From a virus, in IMG/VR virus record IMGVR_UViG_3300032287_002166, positions 1 to 30,529 of that record: 30,529 bases of DNA; one strand, 5' to 3'. Below the pieces are notes generated by a model. It was not told the origin of the DNA, did no database searches, and saw only the letters and a list, made by a program, of their open reading frames with translations. Position 1 is the stretch's first letter, and every line of letters starts with the position of its first letter. Below, piece after piece: positions 16,443-29,044 of this stretch. The position numbers and the translations under genes are program-made.

Positions 16443-18410
16443 TTAGCAAGGTTTAGCGCATGGATCTTCTGGAACATTGACATCTGGATCACGATCATCG
16501 ATATCAACATTACTTTCTGTTCCAGTATCTGGACCGTTGAACTGACCTGGTAGACCAATTATAGTATCAGAGCCATTAAACGCACCAGTTGCGGCAATTG
16601 CAGTATTTGAATCAGCAACTGGTGAAGTCACTGAATCTTGGTTAAACTCACCGTCGAAGTCATCTAGAGTATCGATAAAATTTCCTGTTGTGGCATCACA
16701 TCCATCTTCTGGAGCATATGGCACAATAATGACATTTAGATAATCATCAGAAGATGTGTCACCCTTGTTTCGTTTCTTCTTACCGCAAGACAATGAGAAG
16801 AGTTTGCCTAATGCGTTAACGAAGTTCTTAACGTTTTTAATAATTTGTTTATCTCGCGCGATGACTGCTTCAAGATCATTTCTAACATTTAAGAATCTAG
16901 AAATAGCTCCATTAACTGCAGTTGTTACCTGCGCCTCGCTTAATCCGCGAAGTTTAGCATCGTTAAGTTCATACTTCATTCGCTTTAATGCGTCTTTAGC
17001 ATCTTGCAATAACTCTTTCTTAAAGAGTGCTTGCGCAGCATCGGTAGGATTTTCTGTTGCAACAGAGGTGTATTTTCCATTCGCAAGTCGGACTTTAGAT
17101 GTGACCCCCTTCATGAAGTTAGGATCACCAGTCATTGTTTCAATCATCGTAAAGCCATTAATGATTTCGTCTGGATCGATATCTTCACTAAATCCTGATA
17201 CTTCAATTTCATTATTAACTTTGTAGACTGCGAAATTCTTGGTTAATCTGAGAGTATCATCAACCTTTATGGTCGTATCTGTCAATTCTTCAACGAAGAA
17301 TTCTCTAGTATCGTAGATAATCTTATCCCCAACTTCCAGTTGAGTTAGCCACGAAGTTCCGTTGCCAGTAATTGTATCATCCAAGCACTCTGAATTTGCA
17401 ATAAACGCAGATTTAACATAAACTGTTTGGTTTGTTTTCGTTGTGGTGAATGCGCTGTTTACGATAAATGATGTTTCTTTAAATAATTGCGCTCCAGTTA
17501 CAGAATTATCGAACGCAACATCTACTGTTAGGTAATCTCCAGCGGAGTTAATTGATTCAATTCGTCTAATAACATTGTTTACAGTGATGAACATACTTGA
17601 ATTGAGATTAATTGTTCCCGATACCGACAGTAAACAATTTAACAGATTCAGCGTTCCTGTGCTTGCAGTTATTACCTTCACATTATTGGTAGAAACATCA
17701 ACAGAGACTGTGCCAGAAGCATGGGCAGTAAATACCTTTTCTGTTACAATCTTAGTTTGTGAGTCAATGATAATTGTATCGCCATAATCAACTTTAGGAT
17801 ATGCCGTTGCGTATAAATTTGGCGTTACAACATTGCTAGACGCAATGCTTACAGAAGCACCAACAGAAACAACATTACCATATAAAGGAACCAATTCATA
17901 AGCCATAGTAGACTTTACGCCAGAGAGTGCGTCAGTATGGTCTCTAAAATTTTGCAAACTCGCTTGAAGTGATGAATTTTGCGCAATTGTTGCCAATCTA
18001 CCGAGAGTAAATGGACCAATTTGATAGTTATCAGCAAAGTTTTGCGCGGCTCCAAGAGATGTTTCTAGTGCATCAAATGTTGCTTGAATACTACCAACTC
18101 CATTACCTGCGAGGTATGGGAATGTTGATTTTAATCCTGCATAATCATTACCAATATAGCCATCAATTTCATTATTAAGAGATTCAAATGGTGATGCTAG
18201 TGCTTTATCTAGAGGATCAAGGACAGTGTTCTTAAATTCTTTAAATGCATCAACAAGTGGATTTCTAAAATATTGTTTGAAAAAATTGGAAACAATGTCG
18301 GCTCTCGAATCAAACCATTTCTTCATGTCAATAAGAAATTTACCAAATTTAGTTGATGCGAAATTCAATCCACCATTTTTGACAAATGGAATGGGAACGC
18401 AGGAAAACAT
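16443..18410 (-). CDS. Unidentified 655-residue tail/baseplate protein
   Basis: The protein is large and soluble-looking, and I cannot assign it to a T4 gene. Residues 1-120 are helical (FGKFLIDMKKWFDSRADIV, LVDAFKEFKNTVLDPLDKAL). Residues about 190-400 are beta-rich and hold three copies of a small module, the clearest at about 337-396 (GNGTSWLTQLEVGDKII, FFVEELTDTTI, then YKV). Residues about 430-560 are helical and charged. A short cysteine/lysine-rich stretch (LSCGKKKRNKGD) precedes an acidic tail. The ATG at 18408-18410 is chosen over a TTG one codon upstream. Neither has a good Shine-Dalgarno. The frame stays open further upstream over a hydrophobic stretch, so the true N-terminus is uncertain. 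Position before gp25 suggests a hub or wedge role. Confidence 0.65.
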   Translation of the reverse strand: MFSCVPIPFVKNGGLNFASTKFGKFLIDMKKWFDSRADIVSNFFKQYFRNPLVDAFKEFKNTVLDPLDKALASPFESLNNEIDGYIGNDYAGLKSTFPYLAGNGVGSIQATFDALETSLGAAQNFADNYQIGPFTLGRLATIAQNSSLQASLQNFRDHTDALSGVKSTMAYELVPLYGNVVSVGASVSIASSNVVTPNLYATAYPKVDYGDTIIIDSQTKIVTEKVFTAHASGTVSVDVSTNNVKVITASTGTLNLLNCLLSVSGTINLNSSMFITVNNVIRRIESINSAGDYLTVDVAFDNSVTGAQLFKETSFIVNSAFTTTKTNQTVYVKSAFIANSECLDDTITGNGTSWLTQLEVGDKIIYDTREFFVEELTDTTIKVDDTLRLTKNFAVYKVNNEIEVSGFSEDIDPDEIINGFTMIETMTGDPNFMKGVTSKVRLANGKYTSVATENPTDAAQALFKKELLQDAKDALKRMKYELNDAKLRGLSEAQVTTAVNGAISRFLNVRNDLEAVIARDKQIIKNVKNFVNALGKLFSLSCGKKKRNKGDTSSDDYLNVIIVPYAPEDGCDATTGNFIDTLDDFDGEFNQDSVTSPVADSNTAIAATGAFNGSDTIIGLPGQFNGPDTGTESNVDIDDRDPDVNVPEDPCAKPC

Positions 18411-18481
18411 CAAGGCTAATGTCTGCAGTAATGGTAATCCTCCGATGAGACAGAGGATGATTTTGATGATTTTACTTAAAC

Positions 18482-18724
18482 TTATGAAAGCGGCATACCT
18501 CTAATCAATTTGTCTATGATGTCATTACCATAAACTTTTCTATAGTGTTCTTCAGTATCTTTTGCTTTTTGCATTGCGCCAAGATATGTTTTATGGGCTT
18601 CTATTCTTTCTTGCATATTATTTCTGATCAAAAAGATTTTATCTTCTTCAGAAAGAGGTATCAATTTTACCATTTTATCTTCAAGCATTTGAAGAGTGTG
18701 TAATGCATTAATTTCCATACACAT
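18482..18724 (-). CDS. Small unidentified helical protein
   Basis: This 80-residue protein is charged and predicted helical (TLQMLEDKMVKLIPLSEEDK, then ERIEAHKTYLGAMQKAKDTE). It has no signal peptide or membrane segment. A second in-frame ATG two codons downstream is an alternative start. No strong Shine-Dalgarno is visible before either. It begins 5 bases after the preceding stop in the minus-strand tail operon, which supports a tail assembly or minor structural role. I do not recognise a family. Confidence 0.55.
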   Translation of the reverse strand: MCMEINALHTLQMLEDKMVKLIPLSEEDKIFLIRNNMQERIEAHKTYLGAMQKAKDTEEHYRKVYGNDIIDKLIRGMPLS

Positions 18725-18729
18725 ATTTA

Positions 18730-19260
18730 TTAGAATCCATTAAGCCTAATTTGAGTCTTTTCGGTTGTTGTAGTGGTGGTATTAGGAGTTGCATTACTCA
18801 ATGGTGAAGCGATATTTGCGGCTGCTCCTCTATCCGCGCTAGAATCTCTGGGTGGAACTACTGAACTAAAAGTTCTAATATTTGGTGGCAATTTAGGCTG
18901 TTCTCCATTGAGAATTGCTTGGATAATATTATTTGCAATATCAGTGTAGGATTCTGTTGGAAAACTAATTGAAACATTAGGTCTTCCATTTTCAAATGTG
19001 ACTATAGAATTAGCCCCAGTCGTTATTGGTAAATATTGAGAATTGTCCTCACCTTGCAAAATACGAAAAGTAGTTTGTTGTTCAGTTTCTTGTTGCACCT
19101 TTGGTGAGAATGCATCTCCTGGAGCAAATGGTGCAACAGAAGGCACATAAGGCGCTATTTCATCGCCAAGGTTATACACACCATTCGCCGCAAAGTTCTC
19201 GCCAGATAATTCTGCCTTTACTCGTTGCTGACGGCGTAAAATTTCTATTCCTGATCCCAT
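18730..19260 (-). CDS. Unidentified 176-residue tail protein
   Basis: I do not recognise this protein. The N-terminal 20 residues (GSGIEILRRQQRVKAELSG) are helical and basic. The middle is proline- and alanine-rich (YVPSVAPFAPGDAF), and residues about 85-130 look folded (SFPTESYTDIANNIIQAILN). The C-terminus is a low-complexity linker with a run of seven threonines before a short tail. The start ATG directly abuts the gp5 stop with no spacer, so it is probably coupled to gp5. Its place between gp5 and the wedge genes fits a hub tip, a connector or a minor structural protein. Confidence 0.6.
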   Translation of the reverse strand: MGSGIEILRRQQRVKAELSGENFAANGVYNLGDEIAPYVPSVAPFAPGDAFSPKVQQETEQQTTFRILQGEDNSQYLPITTGANSIVTFENGRPNVSISFPTESYTDIANNIIQAILNGEQPKLPPNIRTFSSVVPPRDSSADRGAAANIASPLSNATPNTTTTTTEKTQIRLNGF

Positions 19261-25668: not shown

Positions 25669-26424
25669 ATGCCATTGCCAAAAATAGATTTACCAATCTT
25701 TGAATTGAAGATATTATCTTATCCACTACCAGTAAAATTTCGACCTTTCTTGGTGAAAGAAGAAAAGTTATTATTGATGGCTCTTCAGAGTAGCGATGAA
25801 GAATCAATTTATAAGACGATTAAACAAGTCATCAATAACTGTTTAGTTGATGATGTTGATATTGATAAACTTCCAATTTTTGATATTGAGTATTTGTTCT
25901 TGAATATTCGAGCAAGATCAATTGGAGAGAAGGTTGAAACAGCCTTTATTTGCCGTAATGTGGTTGGTAAAGAACCAGATGAAAATGGAGTAGAGGTTGA
26001 TGTCGAATGTAAAAATGTGATGCAAGTTGGTATTAATGTTCTTGACATTAAGCCACCTAATGATGATGTGCCAACAAAAGTATATGTTACGGATAAAATT
26101 GGATTGCAATTGAAGTTTCCGACTCTTCGATCGTTTAAGAGCGTTGATTTGATGCTTCAAAATCCAAGTAACAATGCAGTGTTTGATATGATTTATGATT
26201 GCACTGAATATGTGTTCGATGAAAATGGAATGTACTATGTTAATGAATCGCCAAAAGAAGAATTTGTTCTGTTTTTGGAATCATTAACTCAAGAACAATT
26301 TGATAGAATCACAGCATTTTTTGAAAAATTACCAAAGATTGAATATGATATTGATACAAAATGCAGTAAGTGTGAGTTCGAACACAAGTTACATTTGGAG
26401 GGACTCAACGATTTTTTTATCTAA
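25669..26424 (+). CDS. 26: Baseplate hub / tail assembly protein gp26
   Basis: gp26 is needed for hub assembly in T4. The sequence shows the T4 baseplate (gp26) family signature: KFRPFLVKEEKLLLMALQSS, then IKQVINNCLVDDVDIDKLPI, then FDIEYLFLNIRARSIGE. The C-terminal part has four cysteines, Cys95, Cys114, Cys232 and Cys235 (KCSKCEFEH), that could bind zinc. It has 251 residues and its own Shine-Dalgarno GAGG (25658-25661) seven bases before the ATG. Its last codons run through seven T residues (26412-26418) before TAA, and the next gene is open in the -1 frame without a good start. A minor 330-residue gp26-gp51 fusion is therefore likely (see the frameshift entry). Confidence 0.88.
   Translation: MPLPKIDLPIFELKILSYPLPVKFRPFLVKEEKLLLMALQSSDEESIYKTIKQVINNCLVDDVDIDKLPIFDIEYLFLNIRARSIGEKVETAFICRNVVGKEPDENGVEVDVECKNVMQVGINVLDIKPPNDDVPTKVYVTDKIGLQLKFPTLRSFKSVDLMLQNPSNNAVFDMIYDCTEYVFDENGMYYVNESPKEEFVLFLESLTQEQFDRITAFFEKLPKIEYDIDTKCSKCEFEHKLHLEGLNDFFI
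26397..26418 (+). promoter_or_regulatory. Candidate programmed -1 frameshift site joining gp26 and gp51-like frame
   Basis: The slippery heptamer T TTT TTT (26412-26418) is read by gp26 as GAT TTT TTT ATC TAA. A -1 slip gives TTT TTT TAT CTA ACC, open into the next frame. GGAGGG at 26397-26402 ends nine bases before the slip site. This matches the arrangement of the internal Shine-Dalgarno stimulator of E. coli dnaX frameshifting. No clear downstream stem-loop was seen by eye. Confidence 0.65.
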
Positions 26425-26441
26425 CCTTTCGTGATGCTAAT

Positions 26442-26660
26442 TTGAAGAGTTACTATAACAATATGTTTACGCTAACTCACCAATACAAATATACTTTGAC
26501 TGAACTTGAAAATATGATACCATGGGAACGCGATATGTATATCTCAATGGTAAATTCTTGGGTTAGAGAAGAAACGGAGAAAGTTAAACAAAGGAATGTT
26601 GAATCTCAAAACGATTTAAAGAACATGTTTAAAAATATTAAACGCAGTAAGAGAAGATAA
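26442..26660 (+). CDS. 51: gp51-like hub assembly protein / second chaperone frame
   Basis: This short basic protein carries YKYTLTELENMIPWERDMYI, a motif I associate with gp51-type hub assembly catalysts of marine T4-like phages and with second reading frames of tail chaperone pairs. Its first good ATG is 26463 (65 residues). The frame also opens at a TTG at 26442 (72 residues), and it is open back to 26418. The added codons (YLTFRDANLKSYYNNMF) read like conserved protein. It is in the -1 frame relative to gp26, after a slippery T run. The gp26 stop and the TTG are separated by 17 bases. The end overlaps the tape-measure start by one base. The C-terminus is lysine/arginine-rich. Confidence 0.7.
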   Translation: MKSYYNNMFTLTHQYKYTLTELENMIPWERDMYISMVNSWVREETEKVKQRNVESQNDLKNMFKNIKRSKRR

Positions 26661-29044
26661 TGTCATTAGCAAGCATAGCAACTAATCTTTACACAATACA
26701 ATCACGAAAAAATGTTCCGTTAAAAACGGCATTCTCAATGATGGTTCGAGAAGATATGGCTATGCGATTCTCTGTTTACAATTTGGTGAGAATAATTACA
26801 AAATCTGAATTTCTGGCAACGGTTGCGCAAACTGCATATGGAAAACGAACTCCAATGCAAAAAGCACAAGACGAAGAAGATCGTAAGAGAGAAATGAATG
26901 ATCAGAAGTTTAAGGTCTACACACAGGTTACATTCGCTCGAATCAATAACAGATTGAACCTTTTGACATCAATTGCAGAGCGCAACAGTCAATTGATTAT
27001 GAACTTATATTCTGAACTTGGATATTTTCGTGGACAAAGAAAAATGTCCTTCAACTCTAGTGCTGGGTTTGCCACAAGAGTGATGTTACCATCGAAAACA
27101 GTTAAAACTAAAATCGAAGAAATTGAAAAACAATTATATGAACTCAGCAATGTAAAGAAAACTCGTGTACGACCACGCGGTGCTGCGGCAAAAAAGAAAA
27201 CTGGTGCTGGTGCGCAAACAAACCAAGATAGTGGAAGTATCGCGAATTTTATTCTTGCAAATCCTGGATTAGCGATGGCAATCGCTGCACCTGCGCTCGG
27301 TATAGGAACAGCTGCACTTGCAGGATATGCTGCATATAACCTTCCGACGACACTCGGAAGGTCTATCGATAGATTTAAAGGAGAAACTCCAACATATTAT
27401 AATAACAAGGGTGAGGCGATTACTGATCCACAAATAATACAAAATGCAGAGACATTAGCGCAAACAACTGATCCACTTTTATTGTCTGGTGGCGTAGCTG
27501 CTACGACAGCAATCGGAATAAAGGCTGGGTCGATGATATCTTCAACTGCTAAACAAATTAAACAAGGAGCTATATCAAGAGATATAAACAACAGAATAGC
27601 ACAACGGACTGGTCAAACACCATTAGATGCTGCCAACTCACGAAGATTATACAGAGCTTATCAACAGAACAAAGATTTAAATGCACCTGGATTGCAACAA
27701 ACAGCTGCAGAAAGAGACAAAGCTGTAAAAGCCAGAGCAGAAAGAATATACAATCGCGAGGTGGTTAGTGAATGGTCAAAACTACTCCCAATATTAAGAG
27801 GATTGACTAAAGTTGTTGCAGTTGGAAAGGCAGCAGACATAACATACACGCTATCAACTATGAGCACTTTTGTTGCTGAAAGAACAAGTGGTAAAATATC
27901 AGATTCAAAATTTAAAGAGAAGATGATATCTGGTTATTCAAAATTGATAACATCGGTTGGTATCGCACCGATTGCAGCAGGACTCGGCGCACTCGCGGGC
28001 ACATCGATGTTTCCAGGTTTAGGTACACTTACTGGAGGAGTTCTTGGCGGCATTGGTGGCACACTTATCGAGCTTTATCTTGAGAACATTGCGGATAACG
28101 ATAACCTTATAAATCAAGGTATTACCAGCACTGCAACTGCTTTATTTAAATTGTTGCACGAAAATGCATCAGTTTCTCAGTATATGCCAACCGCAATGAC
28201 GATAAAATCAGAAGACACTAACGTTATATCAAATCTGGGTGGTGCGGTTGGCGATCTAAGTTATTATACGGGTGGTAGAGGACAATCTGGTGCGGCTACA
28301 GGTGGAATAGAAGCCATTTTAGCAACAATAAGAACTAAAGAATCTGGTAATAATTATCAAGCAGATGTGATGAAAAATGCCGATGCGCAAGCGCGAGCTA
28401 AAGCATTGGGGTATGGTAAGGCTAGTGCTTCTGGTGCATATCAGTTTGTGGATAGTTCTTGGCAGGGGTTGACAAAAAAGTATGGTATTGGAACGCAATA
28501 CAAAAGAGCAGTCGATGCTCCACCAGATGTTCAAGATCGTGTTGCAGCTGCGTATGTGAATGAGATTTTAGTTGCTACAGGCGGCGATGTTTCTAAAGTT
28601 CCAGTTGCATGGTACACTGGTAATATTGAAGGTAAGATAGATGCTCGAGCACTAGCAATGAACCCTGGACTATCAGTCGCAAAATATCAAGAATCTTGGC
28701 TTTCTCAATATGCAAAAATGGGTAATAGCACTGCAGGTGACATAAGACGAAATGTCGCTACTGCCGATACTGTGAGAACATCACCACCACCACTCACTGT
28801 TTCTACTACAAATGCACCAGTTGCTACTATACCTTCTGCTGAAGATAAACCAAAAGTAGAACAAAATGTTGAAGCAGCAATTGAGGCTAAAGTCGCTTTG
28901 GGGCAAGTTAATATAGTACAGAATCAAATGGTTGCTGCAGTTGGCGCATTGAATCAAAAAATTGTTGATGTGACAAAAAAGACTACAACAGAATTCCCAT
29001 TCACATCGAATCCAGAAGCAGCAATCAGTTCTTACAGAGCATAA
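26660..29044 (+). CDS. Tape-measure-like tail protein with lysozyme-like domain
   Basis: This protein sits right after the gp26/gp51 pair, where tape-measure proteins normally are. It has their pattern: a helical coiled-coil N-terminus (to about residue 170) and two long hydrophobic glycine/alanine segments (about 195-226 and 430-478). Residues about 550-690 form a lysozyme/transglycosylase-like domain: IEAILATIRTKESGNNYQA with likely catalytic Glu561, then ASGAYQFVDSSWQGLTKKYG, then DVQDRVAAAYVNEIL. It may cut peptidoglycan during injection, replacing the domain missing from gp5. It has 794 residues against 590 in T4 gp29, whose role (tail length) it may share. That role is inferred from position and composition, since no sequence match to gp29 was checked. 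It converges on gp32. Confidence 0.75.
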   Translation: MSLASIATNLYTIQSRKNVPLKTAFSMMVREDMAMRFSVYNLVRIITKSEFLATVAQTAYGKRTPMQKAQDEEDRKREMNDQKFKVYTQVTFARINNRLNLLTSIAERNSQLIMNLYSELGYFRGQRKMSFNSSAGFATRVMLPSKTVKTKIEEIEKQLYELSNVKKTRVRPRGAAAKKKTGAGAQTNQDSGSIANFILANPGLAMAIAAPALGIGTAALAGYAAYNLPTTLGRSIDRFKGETPTYYNNKGEAITDPQIIQNAETLAQTTDPLLLSGGVAATTAIGIKAGSMISSTAKQIKQGAISRDINNRIAQRTGQTPLDAANSRRLYRAYQQNKDLNAPGLQQTAAERDKAVKARAERIYNREVVSEWSKLLPILRGLTKVVAVGKAADITYTLSTMSTFVAERTSGKISDSKFKEKMISGYSKLITSVGIAPIAAGLGALAGTSMFPGLGTLTGGVLGGIGGTLIELYLENIADNDNLINQGITSTATALFKLLHENASVSQYMPTAMTIKSEDTNVISNLGGAVGDLSYYTGGRGQSGAATGGIEAILATIRTKESGNNYQADVMKNADAQARAKALGYGKASASGAYQFVDSSWQGLTKKYGIGTQYKRAVDAPPDVQDRVAAAYVNEILVATGGDVSKVPVAWYTGNIEGKIDARALAMNPGLSVAKYQESWLSQYAKMGNSTAGDIRRNVATADTVRTSPPPLTVSTTNAPVATIPSAEDKPKVEQNVEAAIEAKVALGQVNIVQNQMVAAVGALNQKIVDVTKKTTTEFPFTSNPEAAISSYRA

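Follow-up and report, generated by a model that had tools for sequence, protein, structure and literature searches.

A conserved poly-T slip site points to a programmed −1 frameshift joining the gp26 and gp51-like frames of a divergent T4-like marine phage

A single gene in a T4-like marine phage probably gives rise to both a shorter and a longer tail assembly chaperone by means of a programmed −1 frameshift, a reading to which we assign a probability of about 0.93 on the strength of sequence comparison. The phage is represented by IMGVR_UViG_3300032287_002166, analysed here as one 30.5-kb stretch (30,529 nucleotides, hereafter the window), in which gp26 on the + strand is followed by a gp51-like frame in −1. 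The gp26 frame (25669..26424, +; 251 aa) ends GAT TTT TTT ATC TAA and thus carries, in frame, the slippery heptamer T_TTT_TTT (26412..26418, +), which is the only run of at least seven Ts in the window; an A7 run occurs nowhere in it. The 0-frame stop, TAA (26422..26424, +), lies one codon past the slip site, and a GGAGGG that would act as an internal Shine-Dalgarno (SD)-like stimulator (26397..26402, +) precedes the heptamer by nine bases (26403-26411), or by 10 nt when measured from GGAGG. With base 26418 re-read, the −1 frame is open for 80 codons plus a stop (26418..26660, +; stop codon 26658-26660), so that the predicted products are 251 aa without a shift and 250 + 80 = 330 aa for the fusion (25669..26660, +). 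The initial annotation, made from the letters alone, had proposed just this arrangement, and its coordinates proved accurate throughout: the T7 and the codons around it, the placing of GGAGGG, the length of the open −1 frame and the sizes of both predicted products.

The 0 frame belongs to the T4 gp26 family (Pfam PF12322, 2e-58; PHROG_150, 1.4e-64), with an AlphaFold2 model at pLDDT 91, and the −1 frame belongs to the gp51 family (PHROG_634, 'baseplate hub assembly catalyst', 3.8e-19). Around them is a T4-like gene neighbourhood of baseplate wedge and hub genes, head closure, DNA end protector and tail tube. The window gp26 is nevertheless a divergent member, reaching only about 41% identity at best with its closest isolate relatives, which are cyanophages; its environmental relatives L003 and L004 are 72% and 64% identical. 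Within the baseplate cluster we also observed three consecutive ORFs on the − strand (16443-19260; 656, 80 and 176 aa) that have no PHROG match.

The strongest argument for frameshifting comes from these relatives. They were collected with peptide patterns lying inside the gp26 body, away from the slip site, so the conservation described here is not the product of selection by the query. In 180 loci the gp26 stop could be read, and 163 of them, the window included, have T_TTT_TTN in frame no more than 60 nt from that stop; the motif is missing from the other 17, namely Vibrio phage K387 and 16 loci of the CBA120 type (Ackermannviridae). Once thinned to below 80% nucleotide identity, the set comprises 86 representatives, all of which keep T_TTT_TTN and all of which have the extension open and in −1, at a length of 57-80 codons. 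The initial annotation had proposed to look in related phages for the T run and for the frame of gp51, and both are indeed kept. Of 89 loci that have a slip site, 80 place a single codon between it and the gp26 stop. Nor is the signal confined to cyanophages, since isolates far from them (phiM12, DLP6, phi-ST2, Ah1, pf16 and AF3) carry it as well; a scan of viral contigs with phi-ST2 gp26 returned only two near-identical Schizotequatrovirus loci.

Could this conservation simply reflect the encoded protein? The residue preceding the slip site differs between loci (Ser, Asp, Asn, Ala, Gly, Thr, His or Phe), yet its codon (AGT, GAT, AAT, TCT, GCT, GGT, ACT, CAT or TTT) ends in T without exception, against 57% T-ending among D/S/N/A/G codons elsewhere in these genes, as counted in a less redundant set. 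Likewise, the first Phe codon of the slip site is TTT in every case (66% elsewhere), and only 5 of 95 other Phe-Phe pairs in the same genes take the shape T_TTT_TTN. At other codon positions of these genes in the 86 representatives, the motif appears 18 times in 20,237. The last slip codon is freer, being TTC in 62 representatives, TTT in 21, TTA in two and TTG in one. Because the preceding residue varies whilst its codon remains T-ending, and because other Phe-Phe pairs seldom match, these comparisons indicate that the slip site is constrained as nucleotides, beyond what the protein would require.

The same holds for the elements that would stimulate slipping. SD matches of at least 5 nt, mostly sitting 8-10 nt before the slip site, occur in 44 of 86 representatives, as against 29.2 ± 3.9 when synonymous codons are randomised with the protein kept; none of 200 randomisations gave more than 38. 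In the Glu-Gly motif, the Glu codon is GAG in 45/62 loci (26% elsewhere, p=4e-14); for the preceding Leu, the codon ends in G in 27/49 (28% elsewhere, p=6e-5). Both p values treat as independent loci that are not. These results support an internal Shine-Dalgarno conserved past the protein requirement, apparently as a selected feature, in keeping with the stimulator role proposed for GGAGGG at the outset. Downstream of the slip, predicted RNA structure in the family exceeds that of synonymous controls at 3-63 nt (mean z −1.62 ± 0.18) and shows no excess at nt 40-80 (mean z −0.04). For the window itself, a strong downstream hairpin was considered and rejected, as its predicted structure at nt 3-63 is weak and ordinary (z −0.56); L003 and L004 (64-72% identical to the window) have predicted hairpins of −15 to −20 kcal/mol. 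Strong predicted hairpins of −13 to −16 kcal/mol were also seen immediately 3' of the T run in P-SSM2 (L002; GTATGGCTCA...TGAGTCATAC) and at L056, L067 and L082.

T4 itself offers a telling comparison, as it does not shift: its genes 26 and 51 are separate, lie on opposite strands, and gene 26 ends GAG TTC TTT GAG, without a slip site. A profile of the predicted fusions aligns with T4 gp26 over the body only (positions 10-238, 4e-24), whereas with T4 gp51 it aligns over positions 74-281 (E=2.5e-12), running straight over the junction (near 236). When the profile is built from just the extension, it finds residues 207-243 of T4 gp51 (1.5e-5; the best of 1000 shuffles reached 0.18) and has no match in T4 gp26. 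PHROG_150 and PF12322 each recognise both T4 proteins, AlphaFold models of the window gp26 and a T4-type gp51 share the order of their elements, with extra C-terminal helices in gp51, and a BFVD search with the T4-type gp51 model returns gp26 proteins. As T4 gp51 is co-linear with the fusion and T4 gp26 with the body only, the two are a pair of short and long paralogues, in which two genes replace the frameshift. Both are listed as hub assembly chaperones (PMC3004832).

Amongst other explanations, the one that survives best, although we hold it to be improbable, is that termination and reinitiation (translational coupling) after the gp26 stop yield gp51 as a small protein of its own. An ATG does fall within the first five extension codons of 35 of the 86 representatives, and the annotation of phages such as phi-ST2 and AF3 gives gp51 a start that overlaps. 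The remaining 51, the window among them, have no such ATG, and for this reason we reject reinitiation as the general mechanism. In the window, the earliest start-like codons of the −1 frame, TTG at 26442 and ATG at 26463, both lie within the conserved domain by alignment, and starting there would cut into it, in keeping with the first impression that this frame lacks a well-placed ATG. In several phages, moreover, protein-level similarity in the extension begins directly after the slip, upstream of the annotated starts. Reinitiation would also leave unexplained both the fused form of T4 gp51 and the in-frame T_TTT_TTN in 163/163 loci, a count that excludes the 17 Ackermannviridae (CBA120 type) and K387 loci and that gives the programmed −1 frameshift strong comparative support. 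In some phages, reinitiation could operate alongside the frameshift. Vibrio phage K387 (L091, 3118-3300) lacks a T6 run and has a TAATG stop-start overlap in place of the slip site, which suggests reinitiation there.

A shade less probable still is transcriptional slippage, whereby the polymerase rather than the ribosome would change frame on the T run. The length of the run is in its favour in some loci (T7 in the window, T8 in L004), but most representatives have T6 and then a C (62/86). Six Ts are short for polymerase slippage as it is usually known. The conserved codon register, together with an SD at 8-10 nt, points instead to the ribosome. Scarcely credible is that a sequencing or assembly indel split one gene. 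Homopolymers are indeed prone to error, and the record is that of an environmental virus, but 163 loci share the slip site and the −1 relation, among them the independently sequenced isolates P-SSM2, S-ShM2, phiM12, DLP6, pf16, Ah1 and AF3, and since isolates and contigs share the arrangement, this explanation is refuted for the family.

The Ackermannviridae loci without a T run deserve a mention of their own. In CBA120 (L086, 3240-3420) and in L183-L197, a gp51-like extension follows gp26 in −1 with neither a T run nor an early ATG; the junction of this type reads GAG ATT TTC ATT TAA TTTTTGAAATTG, and in CBA120 no gene is annotated over the extension. We could speculate that the wider T4 superfamily descends from an ancestor with a dnaX-like signal (SD, T_TTT_TTN and downstream structure) and that CBA120-type phages, having lost the T run, make the fusion by some other non-canonical recoding, a scenario that we regard as possible and rather unlikely.

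How would the programmed frameshift proceed in the window phage? The majority of ribosomes would end at the gp26 stop and release the 251-aa form, the putative TAC-N. A minority would pause on T_TTT_TTT, helped by pairing between GGAGGG, 9-10 nt upstream, and 16S rRNA, and would slip back by one base, with two tRNA-Phe re-pairing perfectly; the TAA would then be missed and 80 residues (TAC-C) added, giving the 330-aa fusion (TAC-NC). If the pair works as lambda G/GT does, the tape measure protein would be coated by the body common to both forms, and the rare C-terminal extension would recruit tail tube or hub subunits. We infer the slipping, its efficiency and the chaperone role. The elements of the signal, their conservation, the −1 relation of the frames and the homology to T4 gp26 and gp51 can be read directly in the sequences.

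From the position of the gene and its short and long forms, the likely function is by analogy that of a G/GT-like pair of tail assembly chaperones, acting on a tape measure protein encoded downstream. The next gene (26660..29044, +; 794 aa), whose ATG overlaps the extension stop, is the probable candidate by position. Its product has no significant family or PDB match in PHROG, Pfam or PDB, and none to a tape measure protein; the annotation of phiM12 records a resemblance to tape measure proteins for a gene that lies a little further down the corresponding cluster. Around 28280-28609 we noted a transglycosylase-like stretch that falls below the cutoff (Pfam E=0.076).

Considering that hundreds of cyanophage and T4-like records present the pair as an independent 'hub subunit' and 'hub assembly catalyst', the first consequence of this work is a corrected annotation. 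It also offers an explanation for the need of T4 for two paralogous hub genes with chaperone products, and the strong conservation provides a clean set of natural data on the requirements of a poly-T frameshift signal. The general idea is not new. The abstract of Vladimirov, Gautam and Davidson reportedly describes frameshifting as conserved in several T4-like groups and T4 as using genes 26 and 51. PMC12846349 attributes poly-T slip signals in T4-like TAC-N genes to these authors (Virology 2022, 566:9-15), and PMC10885494 cites the same paper for T4-like phages in which a short and a long gene stand in for the shift. On the evidence of these citing papers, the production of two chaperone forms by frameshift has already been described for T4-like phages and our main conclusion is known; the initial annotation, which was aware of no precedent for gp26/gp51, needs correcting on this point. 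On a gp26/gp51 frameshift in cyanophages, the literature searched gave nothing further. What the present analysis adds is a quantified conservation of the slip site, the SD and the downstream structure, with possible overlap with the Virology 2022 paper.

Among known systems, lambda G/GT and P2 E/E' consist of a short form and one lengthened by a −1 shift, with the tape measure gene following directly, as proposed for the window, although their slip sequence is other than that of the window. The lambda-type chaperones have no detectable sequence match to the window proteins, and a fold search with the window gp26 matched a solved member, HK97 2ob9, no better than at E=6.3 (prob 0.13); neither sequence nor fold search thus supports direct homology to a lambda-type chaperone of solved structure. 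The E. coli dnaX cassette resembles the window in having a heptamer of a single base preceded, at about 10 nt, by an SD, and resembles many of its relatives in having a hairpin; it differs in using an A run rather than a T run, in belonging to an unrelated gene, and in that the hairpin of the window is weak. Closer are T4 genes 26 and 51, whose body and extension are homologous to those of the window, with two opposite-strand genes taking the place of one slip site. Closest of all are the T4-like tail assembly chaperones of Vladimirov et al., which, as that work is cited, share with the window the same protein families, short and long forms, and poly-T signals; the difference in mechanism appears to be essentially none, and the window would stand as a divergent member of the same group.
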